This document shows, piece by piece, positions 31,302 through 36,890 of a stretch of 63,064 bases of DNA. The notes under the pieces were generated by a model. It was not told the DNA's origin. It saw only the letters and a program-made list of their open reading frames with translations, and ran no database searches. This DNA is from Sulfobacillus benefaciens (GTDB lineage Bacteria > Bacillota > Sulfobacillia > Sulfobacillales > Sulfobacillaceae). Location of the stretch: contig PXYT01000016.1 of NCBI GenBank assembly GCA_003023725.1, positions 59,699 to 122,762 of the forward strand, written 5' to 3'. Position 1 is the first letter of the stretch, and every line of letters begins with the position of its first letter. The position numbers and the translations under genes are program-made.

Positions 31302-31769
31302 TCAGATAAACAACGAAATCTTGGCTTCCCGGGCAAAGTCCAAAAATGTGGCCGCCCCCACCACATCTTCCACTTCCGGCACCAAATCTTCGCGCTTGAC
31401 CCCAAGAACGTCCATAGACATTTGACAGGCCACCATGTGCACACCCAATTCCTTCGCTTCCGAAACAAAATCCCGAATCGTCATCACATTGGATTGGGCA
31501 AACTGATTTTTCATCATGGACGAAACCATTTTGGTCCCGAAGGGAACCACTCCTGCTACTTTAGCCAGGGCGGGCATTCCCGGGTTTCCCGCGATCGATA
31601 CGGACAAATTGTCAATTTTGTCCTTGTTAATCACATCGAGCCCCCAAAACGTAAAAAACAGCATACATTCCATATCCATAGCCGCTGCCGCTGTTGCCAG
31701 AATGAATGGCGGATAAGCCATGTCCAAACTGCCTTTAGATACAATGATTGCTAACCGGTCTTGCTCCAC
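31302..31769 (-). CDS. DsrE2-like sulfurtransferase/peroxiredoxin-fold protein
   Basis: A 155-residue DsrE/DsrF/DrsH superfamily protein of the DsrE2 type. In sulfur oxidisers these carry persulfide sulfur with TusA and rhodanese. Cys115 in VACQMSMDVLG is the conserved sulfur-binding residue; Cys35 in DMECMLFFTFWGLDV is a second conserved one. Hydrophobic stretches near residues 22-45 suggest membrane association. The start is GTG at 31769 behind GAGGAGGG. It stands alone, 27 kb from the tusA-dsrE pair. Confidence 0.9.
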   Translation of the reverse strand: MEQDRLAIIVSKGSLDMAYPPFILATAAAAMDMECMLFFTFWGLDVINKDKIDNLSVSIAGNPGMPALAKVAGVVPFGTKMVSSMMKNQFAQSNVMTIRDFVSEAKELGVHMVACQMSMDVLGVKREDLVPEVEDVVGAATFLDFAREAKISLFI

Positions 31770-32320: not shown

Positions 32321-33448
32321 CTATGCAGTGGGCAGGCCGGGCATTGGAGAGGCCATGGAGGTCTTATGCGACCAATTCCCTGTAACCCAATGGTCAATCA
32401 TAACGCTCAAGTGGGATTTAATCCGGGTCCCCTGTGCCGGGGTGAGCAAGCCGTTCGACACAGCTTTTTGAATCTGCGCTTGGGCATCTTTCATAAGTGT
32501 TGACTCCAACGCACTAGTCGACGTTCCCGCGTGTTGCGCAATCTGGGACAGGGTTTCTCCCGAACTCAAGTCCGTTCCGAGGGTACTGGGAGATATGTGA
32601 AGGGCTGCGGCTGTCTTCTGAAGCAATGGTCCCATAAATCCCCTGGGACTCTGAAATCCGGCAAAATGCCGCCAACGTCCGGGGCTTTGGGTTACTACCC
32701 GGTCAATGACAGCACCGATATGGGAATCAAGACGACTCGCCTGGGCCGAGGTAAAAATGCCAATGGATACACCCTTCTGAATCTGGGTGCGGGCATCTTG
32801 CACCAAAGCCGATTCGAGGGCACTCGCCGACGATCCCGAATGCTGCGCAATCTCGGCCAAACTTTGGCCTGATTTCATGTCGGTCTGAACAGTGGCCGCT
32901 GATATGTGAAGGGCTGAACCGACATCATTGAAGAACATCCCCATCATGACCTGTCCACCCTGACGGGCGATTAACTGTCTCCACTGAGCGGGGTTTTGCA
33001 TCATCACCCGGTTAAGCAAGGGACTCAGATGAGAATCCAGGCGTTCCGCCTGTGACGCTGTGAACAAACCCGCCGAGACGGCCTTTTGAATTTCAGTTTG
33101 TGCGTCCTGCAACAAGACCGCCTTAAGGCTCGCACGGGAAACCCCTGCATGCTGTGCAATCTGAGCCAGGCTTTGGCCGGAATTCAACTCCGATTCCACC
33201 GTAGTCGGGGACACATGCAAGGCGCTTGCCACGTCATTGGCTAAAATGTCCGTCACATTGAGTCCGCCTGGCATTCCCCATGCACCGAAGCGGGGATGAT
33301 GTCCCTGCTTGTTAACGGGACGTTGGCCTGCATTCACCACCGGATGCGTGGTGGCATTGGCACCAGCATTATGTGACACGGTTATAGCAGCTACCGTACC
33401 GCCTCCGACAAACACACTAGCGGCAACCCATGCTAACGATTTGATCAT
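32321..33448 (-). CDS. exported protein of three 103-residue repeats
   Basis: A 375-residue protein of unknown function. A signal peptide or N-terminal anchor spans about 1-30 (MIKSLAWVAASVFVGGGTVA). Three repeats begin near residues 72, 175 and 278, exactly 103 residues apart. Each runs ALHxS-T-SGxSLxxIAQHxG, then a helical DAQTQIQKAVSxGLxTxAQ segment and a DSHL-like helix. The repeats are all-alpha by composition, and the SLAQIAQHAGVS core recalls a helix-turn-helix or spore-type LysM-like helix pair. It is transcribed away from the two-component pair, sharing a 377-bp intergenic region, so the regulator may control it. The start is ATG 33448 behind AAGGAGCGTGGACTG-type purines. Confidence 0.85.
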   Translation of the reverse strand: MIKSLAWVAASVFVGGGTVAAITVSHNAGANATTHPVVNAGQRPVNKQGHHPRFGAWGMPGGLNVTDILANDVASALHVSPTTVESELNSGQSLAQIAQHAGVSRASLKAVLLQDAQTEIQKAVSAGLFTASQAERLDSHLSPLLNRVMMQNPAQWRQLIARQGGQVMMGMFFNDVGSALHISAATVQTDMKSGQSLAEIAQHSGSSASALESALVQDARTQIQKGVSIGIFTSAQASRLDSHIGAVIDRVVTQSPGRWRHFAGFQSPRGFMGPLLQKTAAALHISPSTLGTDLSSGETLSQIAQHAGTSTSALESTLMKDAQAQIQKAVSNGLLTPAQGTRIKSHLSVMIDHWVTGNWSHKTSMASPMPGLPTA

Positions 33449-33825
33449 CAACAGTCCACGCTCCTTCAGTAATATGGGCGTCGAATAAGACCGCCTGTCC
33501 TCAGTAAACGCCTCACACGTTTCCAAAGTGTTACGAAAACCAAATCTGCAAACTCATGCTGCTCACTTCGGCATCACCGAACGAAAAACCTTGGAGATTT
33601 GAGTCTTTAACTTATCATGCTTAAGCCAATATGCCAAGCTAAGCCGTCTCGATGAGATAAAAGAAGCCGTTCAAAAAAGCGTTGTCATCTTCCCCAGGCA
33701 CGCACGTGCTAAAATGCCTGAAATAAACGGCAGTGGGAGCGGTAGAGCTCCGGGACAAAAATCTTTGTTTGGGGGGAGCCTATGCTAGAATGAGCTAGAG
33801 TGCCATAACAACGGAGGTAAGGAGC
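33449..33825. promoter_or_regulatory. divergent promoter region of repeat protein and two-component pair
   Basis: 377 bases shared by two divergent units. On the plus strand TGCTAGAAT (33783-33791) is an extended -10 box with TTTGTT 16 bases before it. ACGGAGGT (33811-33818) is the ribosome binding site of the response regulator. On the other side the leader of the repeat protein shows no clear boxes. OmpR-type direct repeats were not obvious by eye. Confidence 0.5.
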
Positions 33826-34581
33826 GTGCATGATCAGCCGGATCACAAGGGATCTTCCCCAGAACCAGGCCTGAACCTTTTGATTATTGATGATGATGAA
33901 GGAATCTTGGAACTGTTAACGGCCTACGGCCGTTTGAGCGGGTGGCATACCGTGCCAGCCACGTCCCTGGCTGCAGCCCTAAATGCTTTGGCCTCCTTCG
34001 CCTTTGAGCCTTCTGTGATAATCCTCGACTGGCAGTTGCCGGACAGCGACGGACTGTCATCGATCCGTTCCCTGCGCCAAAGGACGTTCTCCCCTATTCT
34101 TATGCTCACAGTGCGGAATAAGGAATCCGACATCATCGAAGCCCTGAATCTGGGGGCAGACGACTATGTGGTTAAACCTTTTAGCCCGGGCCAAGTGCTG
34201 GCCCGCTGCCAGGCTTTAAGCCGCCGGAGGGATTCTCTGATCCGGAGCACAAAGGGGTCTGTCATCACGACTCATGATCTGGTCATTGATCGCGAACGCC
34301 GCCAATGCCTGCAGAATGGATCCCCCGTCAATCTTTCCACCCTCGAATTCGACTTGTTGGTTCATTTGGCACGTCACAGCGGGCGGGTTTGGACCCGAGA
34401 CGAATTATTGCAACGGATTTGGGGAGACGTCGGGGACGCCTTTGACCGCGCCGTTGATGTGGAAATTGGCCGGTTGAGGCGAAAATTGGGCGACCCGCCC
34501 GAAAATCCACGCTATATAGAAACAGTGCGGGGAGTGGGATACCGATGGCGCGACGAGACTACTTCTCCCGCCCGGCTATAG
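33826..34581 (+). CDS. OmpR/PhoB-family response regulator
   Basis: A 251-residue two-domain regulator. The receiver domain (about 16-130) has the acidic pair in IIDDDEG, the phosphorylation site Asp68 in LDWQLPDSDG and the conserved Lys in VVKPFSPG. The winged-helix domain ends with the typical GRVWTRDELLQRIWG, the AVDVEIGRLRRKL recognition segment and VRGVGYRW. The start is GTG at 33826 (ATG four bases on is out of frame). Its end overlaps the kinase start by 37 bases, so they are translationally coupled. Confidence 0.96.
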   Translation: MHDQPDHKGSSPEPGLNLLIIDDDEGILELLTAYGRLSGWHTVPATSLAAALNALASFAFEPSVIILDWQLPDSDGLSSIRSLRQRTFSPILMLTVRNKESDIIEALNLGADDYVVKPFSPGQVLARCQALSRRRDSLIRSTKGSVITTHDLVIDRERRQCLQNGSPVNLSTLEFDLLVHLARHSGRVWTRDELLQRIWGDVGDAFDRAVDVEIGRLRRKLGDPPENPRYIETVRGVGYRWRDETTSPARL

Positions 34582-35597
34582 GAATCTGGCTGCTGGCGAT
34601 GATGACCGGACTCGCCGGAGTCGGAATTGTGGTCCTGGGGGGCAATTGGTGGGTATCAGCCAGCCATCTTGCCGGCTCCTCCCAACAGGCAGCCTACATC
34701 GTATTAGCCTTGCCCACCCTCCTAATCATCTCGGCAGTGGCCTGGTTCCTCTCGGTACATATTGAACGTACGGTCCTGGGTGAGCTGTCCAGCATTGTGG
34801 AATGGATTAACCAGGTGGATGACGGACATTTTGAACCCCTGCCGGTCTGGGACACCGGTCCCTGGGGTCAACTCACCTACGCCCTCAATCAAATGGCCAG
34901 CCGTCTCGCCACGGCCCAACAGGAGCGAGATGTGTTTCTCGCCAGTGTCGCCCACGAGTTAAAAACCCCCCTGACGGTGCTGCGCGGCAATCTTGAGGGT
35001 CTGATGGATGGGGCCCTGACTCCCACACCGGAGCGATGGGCCGCCTTAACGCGAGAAATCAACCGCCTCACCCGTCTCGTTAACGATCTACTCCTGATTG
35101 AAACCATGCGCCAATCTCCTCCCGCCTTCAACCGGAAACATTACGATCCCCGCGAGCAACTTGCTTCCCTCATACTTCGCTTTGAGCCTCTGGCTCGCAT
35201 GAAAGGGGTGGAAATGACTGGGGAATCCCAGGTCCACGAAGTTTATCTGGATCAGGACCGGATGGAGCAGATTCTGGTCAATTTGGTGGACAACGCCCTA
35301 CGGCATACGCCGGAAGGAGGGCGCATCTGCATCCGCTTGCAACGAAAGATGGAGGGAAAGAAAGACACTCATCAAATCGCCATGCTCGAATGGTGCATTG
35401 AGGATTCGGGACCAGGAATTCCTGCTTCGTCCGCCTCCCTGGTTCTCCAGCCGTTTTTCCGGGATCCCCGTTCCCGGGGAGCGGGGTTGGGATTGGCCGT
35501 GTCAGCCGCACTCGTTCAGGCTCAGGGTGGCACTTTACAAATATCAACCAGTGAACTGGGCGGAGCCAAAATCTGTCTAAGCCTTCCCTTCTCCTAA
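34545..35597 (+). CDS. sensor histidine kinase
   Basis: A 350-residue membrane kinase and partner of the response regulator. Two helices at about 10-35 and 45-70 bracket only a very short outside loop, so it probably senses within or at the membrane rather than by a large external domain. A HAMP-like linker follows. The phosphorylated His137 lies in SVAHELKTPLTVLRG, the N box in LVDNALRHTPEGG and the G boxes in DSGPGIP and RGAGLGLAVSAALV. It begins inside the regulator gene. The small SHOCT gene converges on it eight bases after its stop. Confidence 0.95.
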   Translation: MARRDYFSRPAIGIWLLAMMTGLAGVGIVVLGGNWWVSASHLAGSSQQAAYIVLALPTLLIISAVAWFLSVHIERTVLGELSSIVEWINQVDDGHFEPLPVWDTGPWGQLTYALNQMASRLATAQQERDVFLASVAHELKTPLTVLRGNLEGLMDGALTPTPERWAALTREINRLTRLVNDLLLIETMRQSPPAFNRKHYDPREQLASLILRFEPLARMKGVEMTGESQVHEVYLDQDRMEQILVNLVDNALRHTPEGGRICIRLQRKMEGKKDTHQIAMLEWCIEDSGPGIPASSASLVLQPFFRDPRSRGAGLGLAVSAALVQAQGGTLQISTSELGGAKICLSLPFS

Positions 35598-35604
35598 AGA
35601 CTGG

Positions 35605-35817
35605 TTAGGATTGAAGCCGTTTACGAATTTCCTCGTATTCCTCAAGTGTGATTTCTCCCCGAGACAATCGTAGCTTCAATATGGCCAACGGATCATTATC
35701 CCGCCGCCTAATATCACTGTGGCTCCGGATCCAGTACCAGATGCCAAGTCCCAGCATGATAATGAGGCCGATCCAAAGGACATTCGAAATCCACATCATG
35801 GTCATCATACCGCCCAT
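35605..35817 (-). CDS. small SHOCT-domain membrane protein
   Basis: A 70-residue protein: Met-rich start, one membrane helix (WISNVLWIGLIIMLGLGIWY) and a C-terminal SHOCT motif LKLRLSRGEITLEEYEEIRK. SHOCT is a short helical hairpin, often found at the end of oligomerising envelope or phage proteins. The ATG at 35817 follows AGGAGGG with good spacing; a longer reading adds 25 polar residues without a site. It is paralogous to the next small gene, 470 bases away on the same strand. Confidence 0.85.
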   Translation of the reverse strand: MGGMMTMMWISNVLWIGLIIMLGLGIWYWIRSHSDIRRRDNDPLAILKLRLSRGEITLEEYEEIRKRLQS

Positions 35818-36289
35818 AATTGGCCCTCCTGCAGGTATTGTATCCTGCCTCCCCGACACTCGCAAAGAACTGGCTTTTCTCTTCCGGATCACGCCGAGAT
35901 GGTCAAGAACCCACGGGCCAGCACCTTTGAAAATAGTCGTTCCGGAAAAGATCTGTTTCTGTTGAATCCGTCCTTAGTCAATAAAATCGGAACTTAGCAG
36001 AAAAGCCACGGAAATGAGCGACCAAACCTCTATCCTAAGCGGACTCAACGCCCACTCTCAATTTAGAAGATTCAGGGTCAAGAGCCAGCCCAGAAATTGC
36101 CGATCTCTTATCGAGGCGCCCGTAAAACACCGGGACGGCATAAGTCTTTTGACTTTTGGAACGGCTGGTCGCCTTGAGGCCAACACGGATCCTCCCGTGG
36201 TCGTGGAACCGACTTTCATGCGCCCTCATGCTTTCTCATGGCCATAATGCCATGAGAAAGCATGTCTTAGCGATTCTAGGGATCTGTCG
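35818..36289. other. intergenic region between the two SHOCT genes
   Basis: Holds the upstream region of the first SHOCT gene and the long hairpin at 36227-36264. No further gene is supported. Confidence 0.4.
36227..36264. repeat. 16-bp perfect inverted repeat
   Basis: CATGCTTTCTCATGGC (36227-36242) and its exact complement (36249-36264) enclose the six bases CATAAT. It begins 25 bases behind the second SHOCT gene. Neither flank has a T run, so it may stabilise the mRNA 3' end, act as a weak terminator or be a small-RNA hairpin. Confidence 0.6.
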
Positions 36290-36538
36290 TTAATCCCTCA
36301 GATGTGCCCGGAGCATTTCATATTCATCCGGGGTTATCTCACCCCGGGCCAGACGCATTTTGAGCTGTTTCAATGGGTCGCTCGAACCATTGCCGGAAGC
36401 GGATGAGTAACCTCGAATGATATATTTAATTCCCGCGAACATTCCGAGGATGACCGCCCCCAACAAGAGGAGTCCGAACAAAGCCATCCACGCCATGCCG
36501 GCACCATGGAAACCACTGGCAAACCCCCATCCCATCAT
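36290..36538 (-). CDS. second small SHOCT-domain membrane protein
   Basis: An 82-residue paralogue of the preceding protein: a Gly/Met-rich start, one membrane helix (MAWMALFGLLLLGAVILGMF) and the SHOCT motif LKMRLARGEITPDEYEMLRA at the end. The ATG at 36538 follows AGGGGGTGG. Both SHOCT proteins share the DPL-LK-RL-RGEIT core, so a local duplication is likely. Function unknown; proximity suggests a link with the two-component pair. Confidence 0.85.
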   Translation of the reverse strand: MMGWGFASGFHGAGMAWMALFGLLLLGAVILGMFAGIKYIIRGYSSASGNGSSDPLKQLKMRLARGEITPDEYEMLRAHLRD

Positions 36539-36890
36539 ATTAATCCACCCCCTGTAGCTCAATTATCACGCCTTGGGGTATCATTCTGATGTCACTTGTG
36601 TAACAGAAGGGTAACAGAAATCGTTTCCTTCAGAAGATATTTCCGGTCCGCGCACGAAATCCTGTGTGCACCGCAAGAAACGTCTTCTCTGATCCGTAAC
36701 GGTCCCCGGGGGACCCGGGATCGTTTAAAACTTCACAAGCGAATATAAGAACAGAGTAGCGCGGGTGAAAACCATTAAGGTTTTTGTCGAAAAGTTCCCA
36801 GACCATTGAAGGTATGATCTTTGTGATATAGACTGGCTGACAATCTTCTCAAGCTCAAGCAATGACTTTGTGGGCCGGTTTTTTCCAAAT
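36539..36890. other. intergenic stretch, nothing recognised
   Basis: 352 bases between the second SHOCT gene and the acetyltransferase stop. It includes CCCCGGGGGACCCGGG-like GC repeats near 36705-36720. No gene or clear promoter. Confidence 0.35.

Follow-up and report, generated by a model that had tools for sequence, protein, structure and literature searches.

Intramembrane-sensing histidine kinases are characterized by two N-terminal helices joined by a linker of under 25 amino acids, and they require additional components (PMC4388633). Such an extra component is LiaF in the case of LiaS (PMC3543457). For SaeS it was described that the short linker can itself tune the kinase (PMC4388633). 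Here, we analyzed a stretch of 63,064 nucleotides (the window) from the 4.56-Mb draft genome of Sulfobacillus benefaciens (contig PXYT01000016.1; genome G000 in our numbering of genomes, G, contigs, C, and extracted loci, L). It encodes a histidine kinase (HK) with this architecture, a response regulator (RR) and, convergent with the kinase gene, a small membrane protein with a SHOCT domain (S1). A second SHOCT gene (S2) lies behind S1, and the gene of an exported repeat protein (REP) is divergent from the pair. An earlier note on this DNA had regarded the five genes as one envelope-sensing module. We report that the conserved core consists of RR, HK and S1, with HK and S1 tail-to-tail, and not of five genes.

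Like the kinases of LiaFSR, BceRS-BceAB and SaePQRS, HK possesses two helices, a linker under 25 amino acids and no sensor domain, and the likeness includes a conserved neighboring membrane protein as candidate accessory part. However, where those systems have LiaF, SaeP/Q or an ABC transporter, the candidate is a SHOCT protein here. RR is of the PhoB type, and the neighbors in relatives are copper and cupredoxin genes. With CusRS, CopRS and PcoRS the system shares an OmpR-family regulator and a HisKA kinase near copper genes (again in relatives), but HK has no periplasmic metal-binding sensor domain of the CusS/CopS type, its linker comprising only 21 residues. The system also scores far below the cut-offs of the heavy-metal kinase and regulator models, TIGR01386 (106.8 bits; cut-off 292.55) and TIGR01387 (126.3 bits; cut-off 279.2).

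More than a thousand bacterial proteins contain SHOCT domains; the idea that these mediate self-oligomerization was tested and remained unsupported (Eberhardt et al., 2013, PMC3581485). S1 and S2 have one helix followed by a short helical hairpin at the C-terminus, as do the proteins described there and the SHOCT-like domains of a PSP survey (PMC11237479). In contrast to these two accounts, as far as they are accessible, a SHOCT protein is here the putative fixed partner of a kinase, and SHOCT is also found with rusticyanin. An account of a SHOCT protein as kinase partner in a copper setting, or of a system with the five-gene set, was not found in the accessible literature, most subscription literature lying outside the search. 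What appears to be new here is the type of accessory candidate that accompanies an intramembrane-sensing kinase.

The kinase and its convergent SHOCT gene

All five open reading frames (ORFs) were recovered at the places given in the earlier note, in the same order and on the same strands, as judged from ORFs and Pfam domains; only the start sites had to be slightly corrected (Table 1). Likewise, its description of a kinase with almost no external sensor loop, of two single-helix SHOCT proteins behind it and of three repeats with a 103-residue period in REP proved correct. The reading frames of RR and HK overlap by 37 bp, and S1 is separated from the 3' end of HK by a gap of 7 bp. Translation of S1 probably starts at the ATG at 35817 and not at 35892, since a GGAGG-type ribosome site precedes the sequence MGGMMTMMW. 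The start of S2 is at 36538.

HK contains HisKA (E 1.8e-14) and HATPase_c (E 4e-22) domains. Its hydrophobic helices (residues 12-30 and 52-70) are joined by the 21-residue linker, and in all eight aligned kinases, i.e., the one of the window and seven orthologues, the linker measures 16-21 amino acids. Neither PAS nor GAF was found in the Pfam search, which besides the two catalytic domains returned one HAMP stretch below threshold. With two helices, a linker under 25 amino acids and no other sensory domain found, HK has the architecture of the intramembrane-sensing kinases. In a scan of named genomes with the HK alignment the pattern AHELKTPL pulled in unrelated kinases, and Sulfobacillus thermotolerans was the sole orthologue. 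When plasmids were searched with HK, the matches listed were generic kinases throughout, all of them below 35% identity.

RR carries Trans_reg_C (E 1.5e-27) and Response_reg (E 7e-21), both past the cut-off, which places it in the OmpR/PhoB family. Its best NCBIfam relatives are MtrA and PhoB, with scores under their cut-offs. RR has a PhoB-like DNA-binding domain; Escherichia coli PhoB served only to orient the alignment. A close relative of RR is encoded in a genome without an HK orthologue (G001:C96:37597-38280; E 8e-102).

To follow the linkage, 61 relatives were searched with the kinase as query and, independently, with the Pfam SHOCT profile, while profiles of HK and S1 were run against 154 genomes of the class. 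HK orthologues with 45-74% identity were present in ten further genomes among the 61 relatives. A convergent SHOCT gene was located within ~170 bp of the HK 3' end in 11 of the 11 loci with an assembled 3' flank. These loci come from ten genomes (G000, G002, G004, G005, G006, G008, G018, G031, G035 and, with two loci, G030). A contig break splits HK in G029, where S1 is found on one of the two contigs. The background of SHOCT genes is about one per Mb. In five loci the ends of the HK and S1 genes even share 4 bp. In the class-wide search HK orthologues were recovered in 11 of 154 genomes and S1 orthologues (E <= 5e-29; next match 5e-18) in the same 11, although both profiles were partly built from genomes they recover, and the Pfam SHOCT search is the cleaner test. 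The three next kinases (G106, G116 and G118; E ~1e-77 to 1e-80) have a SHOCT gene at a distance of ~1 kb, on the far side of the regulator gene. Between the loci L066 (G030:C228) and L068 (G002:C58:3000-20230) the compared proteins look identical though the genomes sit in different genera. These two loci are decayed (see below), and their identity suggests recent transfer or assembly contamination.

Both SHOCT proteins exceed the gathering score of Pfam PF09851 (27 bits; Table 1). S1 and S2 resemble each other mainly in the SHOCT half, and S2 belongs to a SHOCT group separate from S1: in relatives S1 accompanies the kinase, whereas S2 is associated with rusticyanin and with a motif in the promoter. 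In the alignment of S1 orthologues no Lys or Arg precedes the helix and one to six follow it; the N-terminus is therefore predicted outside and the SHOCT domain inside. The N-terminus itself is MMxMMW-like, with an invariant Met-Trp and four to five Met in the first 12 residues.

Table 1. Features of the RR-HK-S1 locus and its surroundings in the window (position 1 is the first letter of the window).
Feature	Position	Strand	Evidence
RR, PhoB/OmpR-type response regulator	33826..34581	+	Pfam Trans_reg_C, Response_reg; orthologues in relatives
HK, histidine kinase with two transmembrane helices	34545..35597	+	HisKA, HATPase_c; topology; orthologue alignment; 11 genomes of the class
S1, 70-aa single-helix SHOCT membrane protein	35605..35817	-	Pfam SHOCT 29.8 bits; linkage to HK; alignment
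S2, 82-aa single-helix SHOCT protein	36290..36538	-	Pfam SHOCT 36.6 bits; alignment, profile search, rusticyanin positions
Predicted S2 operator, CTGTTAC-N4-CTGTTAC-N4-GTGACAT	36587..36617	-	Exact pattern match; weight matrix
REP, predicted exported three-repeat protein	32321..33448	-	Repeat self-comparison; neighbor of the pair solely in G000 and G006
Imperfect inverted repeat upstream of REP, TAACAC-N9-GTGTGA (minus-strand reading)	33513..33533		Upstream sequences, three species

Copper genes, S2 and a candidate operator

In eight of the 11 HK-bearing genomes rusticyanin-like, sulfocyanin-domain or CopA genes lie within ~10 kb of HK, and CsoR, CopZ, CcdA-like and SCO1-like genes are near HK in some of these. 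Conversely, 15 of 19 strong rusticyanin-like loci (E <= 1e-23; 61 genomes) have a same-strand SHOCT gene directly upstream within ~1.2 kb. Alignment and profile search revealed that S2 is orthologous to this SHOCT protein. Three rusticyanin-like proteins were tested against the NCBIfam rusticyanin model and gave E-values of 5e-24 to 2e-28, under the equivalog cut-off, so that "rusticyanin-like" is the right name. The rusticyanin-like gene is followed by a class I methyltransferase gene in L070, L072, L074, L077, L097, L100, L232, L240, L250 and L251.

For S. thermotolerans Kr1 a plasmid-like region of 83 kb that contains CopA, CopZ, CsoR and rusticyanin has been described; the accessible part of this account makes no mention of the RR-HK pair, the SHOCT genes or the operator studied here (PMC6803676). 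The chromosome of this strain (G005, CP019454) carries an orthologous RR-HK-S1-S2 set at ~137-142 kb, within an island of the same type. In contrast, the locus of the window is without copper and rusticyanin genes; in G000 sulfocyanin-domain proteins are present and copper ATPases are encoded elsewhere in the genome. The RR gene of G004 is directly preceded by transposase-like ORFs, by eye of the IS3 type (L072 6416-7569), which marks the island as mobile.

The S2 promoter contains CTGTTAC-CCTT-CTGTTAC-ACAA-GTGACAT, three direct repeats with an 11-bp period, located ~50-79 bp before the S2 start. Direct repeats with this spacing are the type of site used by PhoB/OmpR-family regulators. Searched with the pattern YTGTKACN4YTGTKAC, the 4.56-Mb genome gave a single exact match, which is the site in the S2 promoter. 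Across 15 genomes 19 exact matches were obtained, 15 of them closely upstream of a SHOCT, a rusticyanin-like or a polytopic membrane-protein gene. A reversed control pattern gave a similar total count, and the evidence for the operator is therefore placement, not number. At the S2 promoter a weight matrix built without G000 scored 24.2, compared to at most 11.6 for shuffled sequences, and eight of nine S2-type promoters gave scores of 24 to 36. Among loci totaling 1.32 Mb, mostly from unrelated bacteria, sites above 20 were found only inside the S. thermotolerans island. The upstream regions of RR, S1 and REP in the window gave no matrix score above shuffles, and in 33449-33825, the gap between REP and RR, no match was seen even with two mismatches.

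The G006 genome holds its rusticyanin gene on a separate contig, with its own operator site, which points to regulation in trans. In G031 and G029 operators lie between RR and the gene divergent from it. No operator was detected near the sulfocyanin genes of G000 and G006. The polytopic membrane protein with an operator has no Pfam or NCBIfam match (L071 12813-13961, L074 17471-18001, L076 1693-2844, L068 13005-14720), and a relative of it appears, by eye, joined to a sulfocyanin (SoxE) domain. In L245 (G026:C113) and L246 (G028:C48) an operator-like site, possibly due to chance, precedes an acyltransferase-like gene by ~280 bp.

Proposed mechanism and alternatives

The gene set, the topology, the HK-S1 linkage, the copper/cupredoxin neighborhood and the operator with its placement can be read from the sequences. 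Based on these, we propose that S1 is the accessory input and S2 an output of a copper/cupredoxin-linked two-plus-one system from which rusticyanin has been lost here, a reading that in our judgment has about an even chance of being right. An accessory input role is proposed for S1 because such kinases need extra components and S1 is the constant neighbor. HK has no signal-binding domain of its own and would be touched by S1. S1 would present its Met-rich N-terminus at the external face of the membrane and the SHOCT helical hairpin in the cytoplasm, and may either pass on an extracytoplasmic signal or restrain HK until the signal arrives. The likeliest signal, we infer, is copper as Cu(I) or the state of the cupredoxins, either their loading or their redox state. 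Once phosphorylated, RR would then bind the triple 11-bp direct repeats YTGTKAC-N4-YTGTKAC-N4/5-TGACA and, presumably as an activator rather than a repressor, switch on S2-type SHOCT genes, rusticyanin-like genes and the polytopic membrane protein. In the genome studied here the rusticyanin gene would have been lost, leaving the S2 promoter with the one exact operator. The division of roles fits the operator data, since S2 has an operator and S1 has none. A study on Haloferax reports that silver induces a SHOCT membrane protein (PMC10694973), a weak though compatible observation.

Several observations weigh against this proposal. No copper genes lie beside the module in G000, G006 and G035, and a genome search of G000 found no rusticyanin-like gene at all. 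S1 is without an operator and is transcribed towards HK. In G002 and G030 a frameshift divides RR and a TGA stop interrupts HK, while S1 and S2 are intact. Operator and S2 occur without an RR or HK orthologue in G009, G026 and G028. The class-wide co-occurrence of HK and S1 also suffers from the circularity of the profiles mentioned above.

Some of these points would be accommodated if S1 and S2 were both effectors that aid copper handling or cupredoxin maturation and lay near the two-component system via a shared mobile metal island, with HK sensing by itself, through the helices or the short linker. Consistent with this, S2 precedes rusticyanin-like genes, further operator-bearing SHOCT genes exist, and both SHOCT genes outlast the decayed pair in G002 and G030. 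Moreover, the islands carry transposases, one of them being published as plasmid-derived (PMC6803676), and SaeS sets the precedent of a short linker that itself tunes the kinase (PMC4388633). However, S1, unlike S2, follows HK even where copper and cupredoxin neighbors are absent (G000, G006, G035), and it does so in one fixed convergent position; we consider pure effector roles rather unlikely, though to be taken seriously. A different objection concerns the regulator. The S2 link could be positional only, if another PhoB-family protein reads the operator and this RR has different targets. Another regulator may indeed read the operator in G009, G026 and G028, because an RR/HK orthologue is absent there, and the RR promoter of the window has no operator. 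On the other hand, the repeats are of the PhoB/OmpR-family type and RR has the DNA-binding domain to match, operators cluster in RR-bearing islands, and in G031 and G029 they occupy the gap beside RR. Such a foreign reader of the operator is in our view unlikely.

The proposal of the earlier note, a five-gene envelope-sensing module, is, in the form in which HK reads REP, very unlikely in the light of the comparative data. In two species REP and RR are divergent neighbors, and in eight relatives proteins whose repeats resemble those of REP adjoin a different RR-HK pair. Yet REP adjoins RR-HK only in the sister species G000 and G006, that is in two of 11 HK-bearing genomes, and nine are without adjacency. 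REP orthologues of G001 to G005 and of other relatives are unlinked to the pair: the gene sits on a different contig in G002 and at a chromosomal distance of more than 0.2 Mb in G004 and G005, and G001 and G003 have REP and no HK. Instead, a DsrE-like gene accompanies REP in each of the three closest species (G000, G006 and G002). The regulator site expected in the REP-RR gap did not turn up, and the generic envelope or acid-stress setting gives way to the copper and cupredoxin genes that surround the core in relatives. What stands of the suggestion that the sensorless kinase reads a partner is the SHOCT protein as constant neighbor of the HK orthologues; for REP, whose adjacency is rare, it finds no such support. 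REP is thus probably a neighbor acquired or kept in a sub-lineage and not a constitutive part of the system. That the genes of the core are merely chance neighbors in an ordinary chromosome stretch is hardly credible: taken singly, both OmpR-type pairs and SHOCT genes are common, but the convergent HK-SHOCT placement holds in 11 of 11 loci at ~50% sequence divergence.

To our knowledge, SHOCT domains have no established function. The fixed pairing of SHOCT and kinase genes together with the candidate operator makes the question of SHOCT function experimentally testable. RR would be the first candidate regulator for the rusticyanin/SHOCT operons in Sulfobacillus, where the electron chain of iron oxidation is poorly understood and relevant to bioleaching. 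A broader speculation is that Met-rich SHOCT proteins are general accessory copper-input subunits for sensorless kinases, which would be the first defined role for this widespread orphan domain, and that they form, together with the direct-repeat operon, a regulon of cupredoxin electron transfer in acidophilic Gram-positives. We consider this generalization quite unlikely at present.

The repeat protein REP

The ORF of REP spans 32321-33526 on the minus strand. The most likely start is the ATG at 33448, which gives a protein of 375 amino acids with an N-terminal hydrophobic export segment. Self-comparison at an offset of 103 residues gave 38% identity (104/273), the sole offset above 15% among those from 80 to 129; identity to unit 1 amounts to 50% for unit 2 and 41% for unit 3. 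The Pfam cut-offs were passed for ribosomal S20, an AraC-type helix-turn-helix, LysM and a tRNA deacylase, but these matches are partial and mutually inconsistent and were rejected as repeat artifacts. DUF2680 (PF10925) reaches 32.7 bits, compared to a cut-off of 25, covering only positions 24-48 of the 57 in the profile, and unrelated families also pass. A fold predicted for one unit, with the other two units as alignment, was all-helical with a predicted local distance difference test score (pLDDT) of 81. With this model Foldseek returned no PDB match below E 0.001 and a further structure comparison no Z above 4.8; no fold or function is therefore assigned to REP.

The inverted repeat in the REP upstream region (Table 1) is present in three species and reads TAACAG-N9-CTGTTA in G006. 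It is not a match to the S2 operator. The DsrE-like gene is located at 31302-31769 (-) in the window, at 4713-5180 in L065 and at 4079-4546 in L069; it is 95-98% identical between species, whereas REP is 60-62% identical. In the eight relatives with REP-related repeats (L085-L092) the respective genes lie directly downstream of an RR-HK pair with a long kinase, and the REP repeat family is possibly associated with two-component systems, though with a different one.

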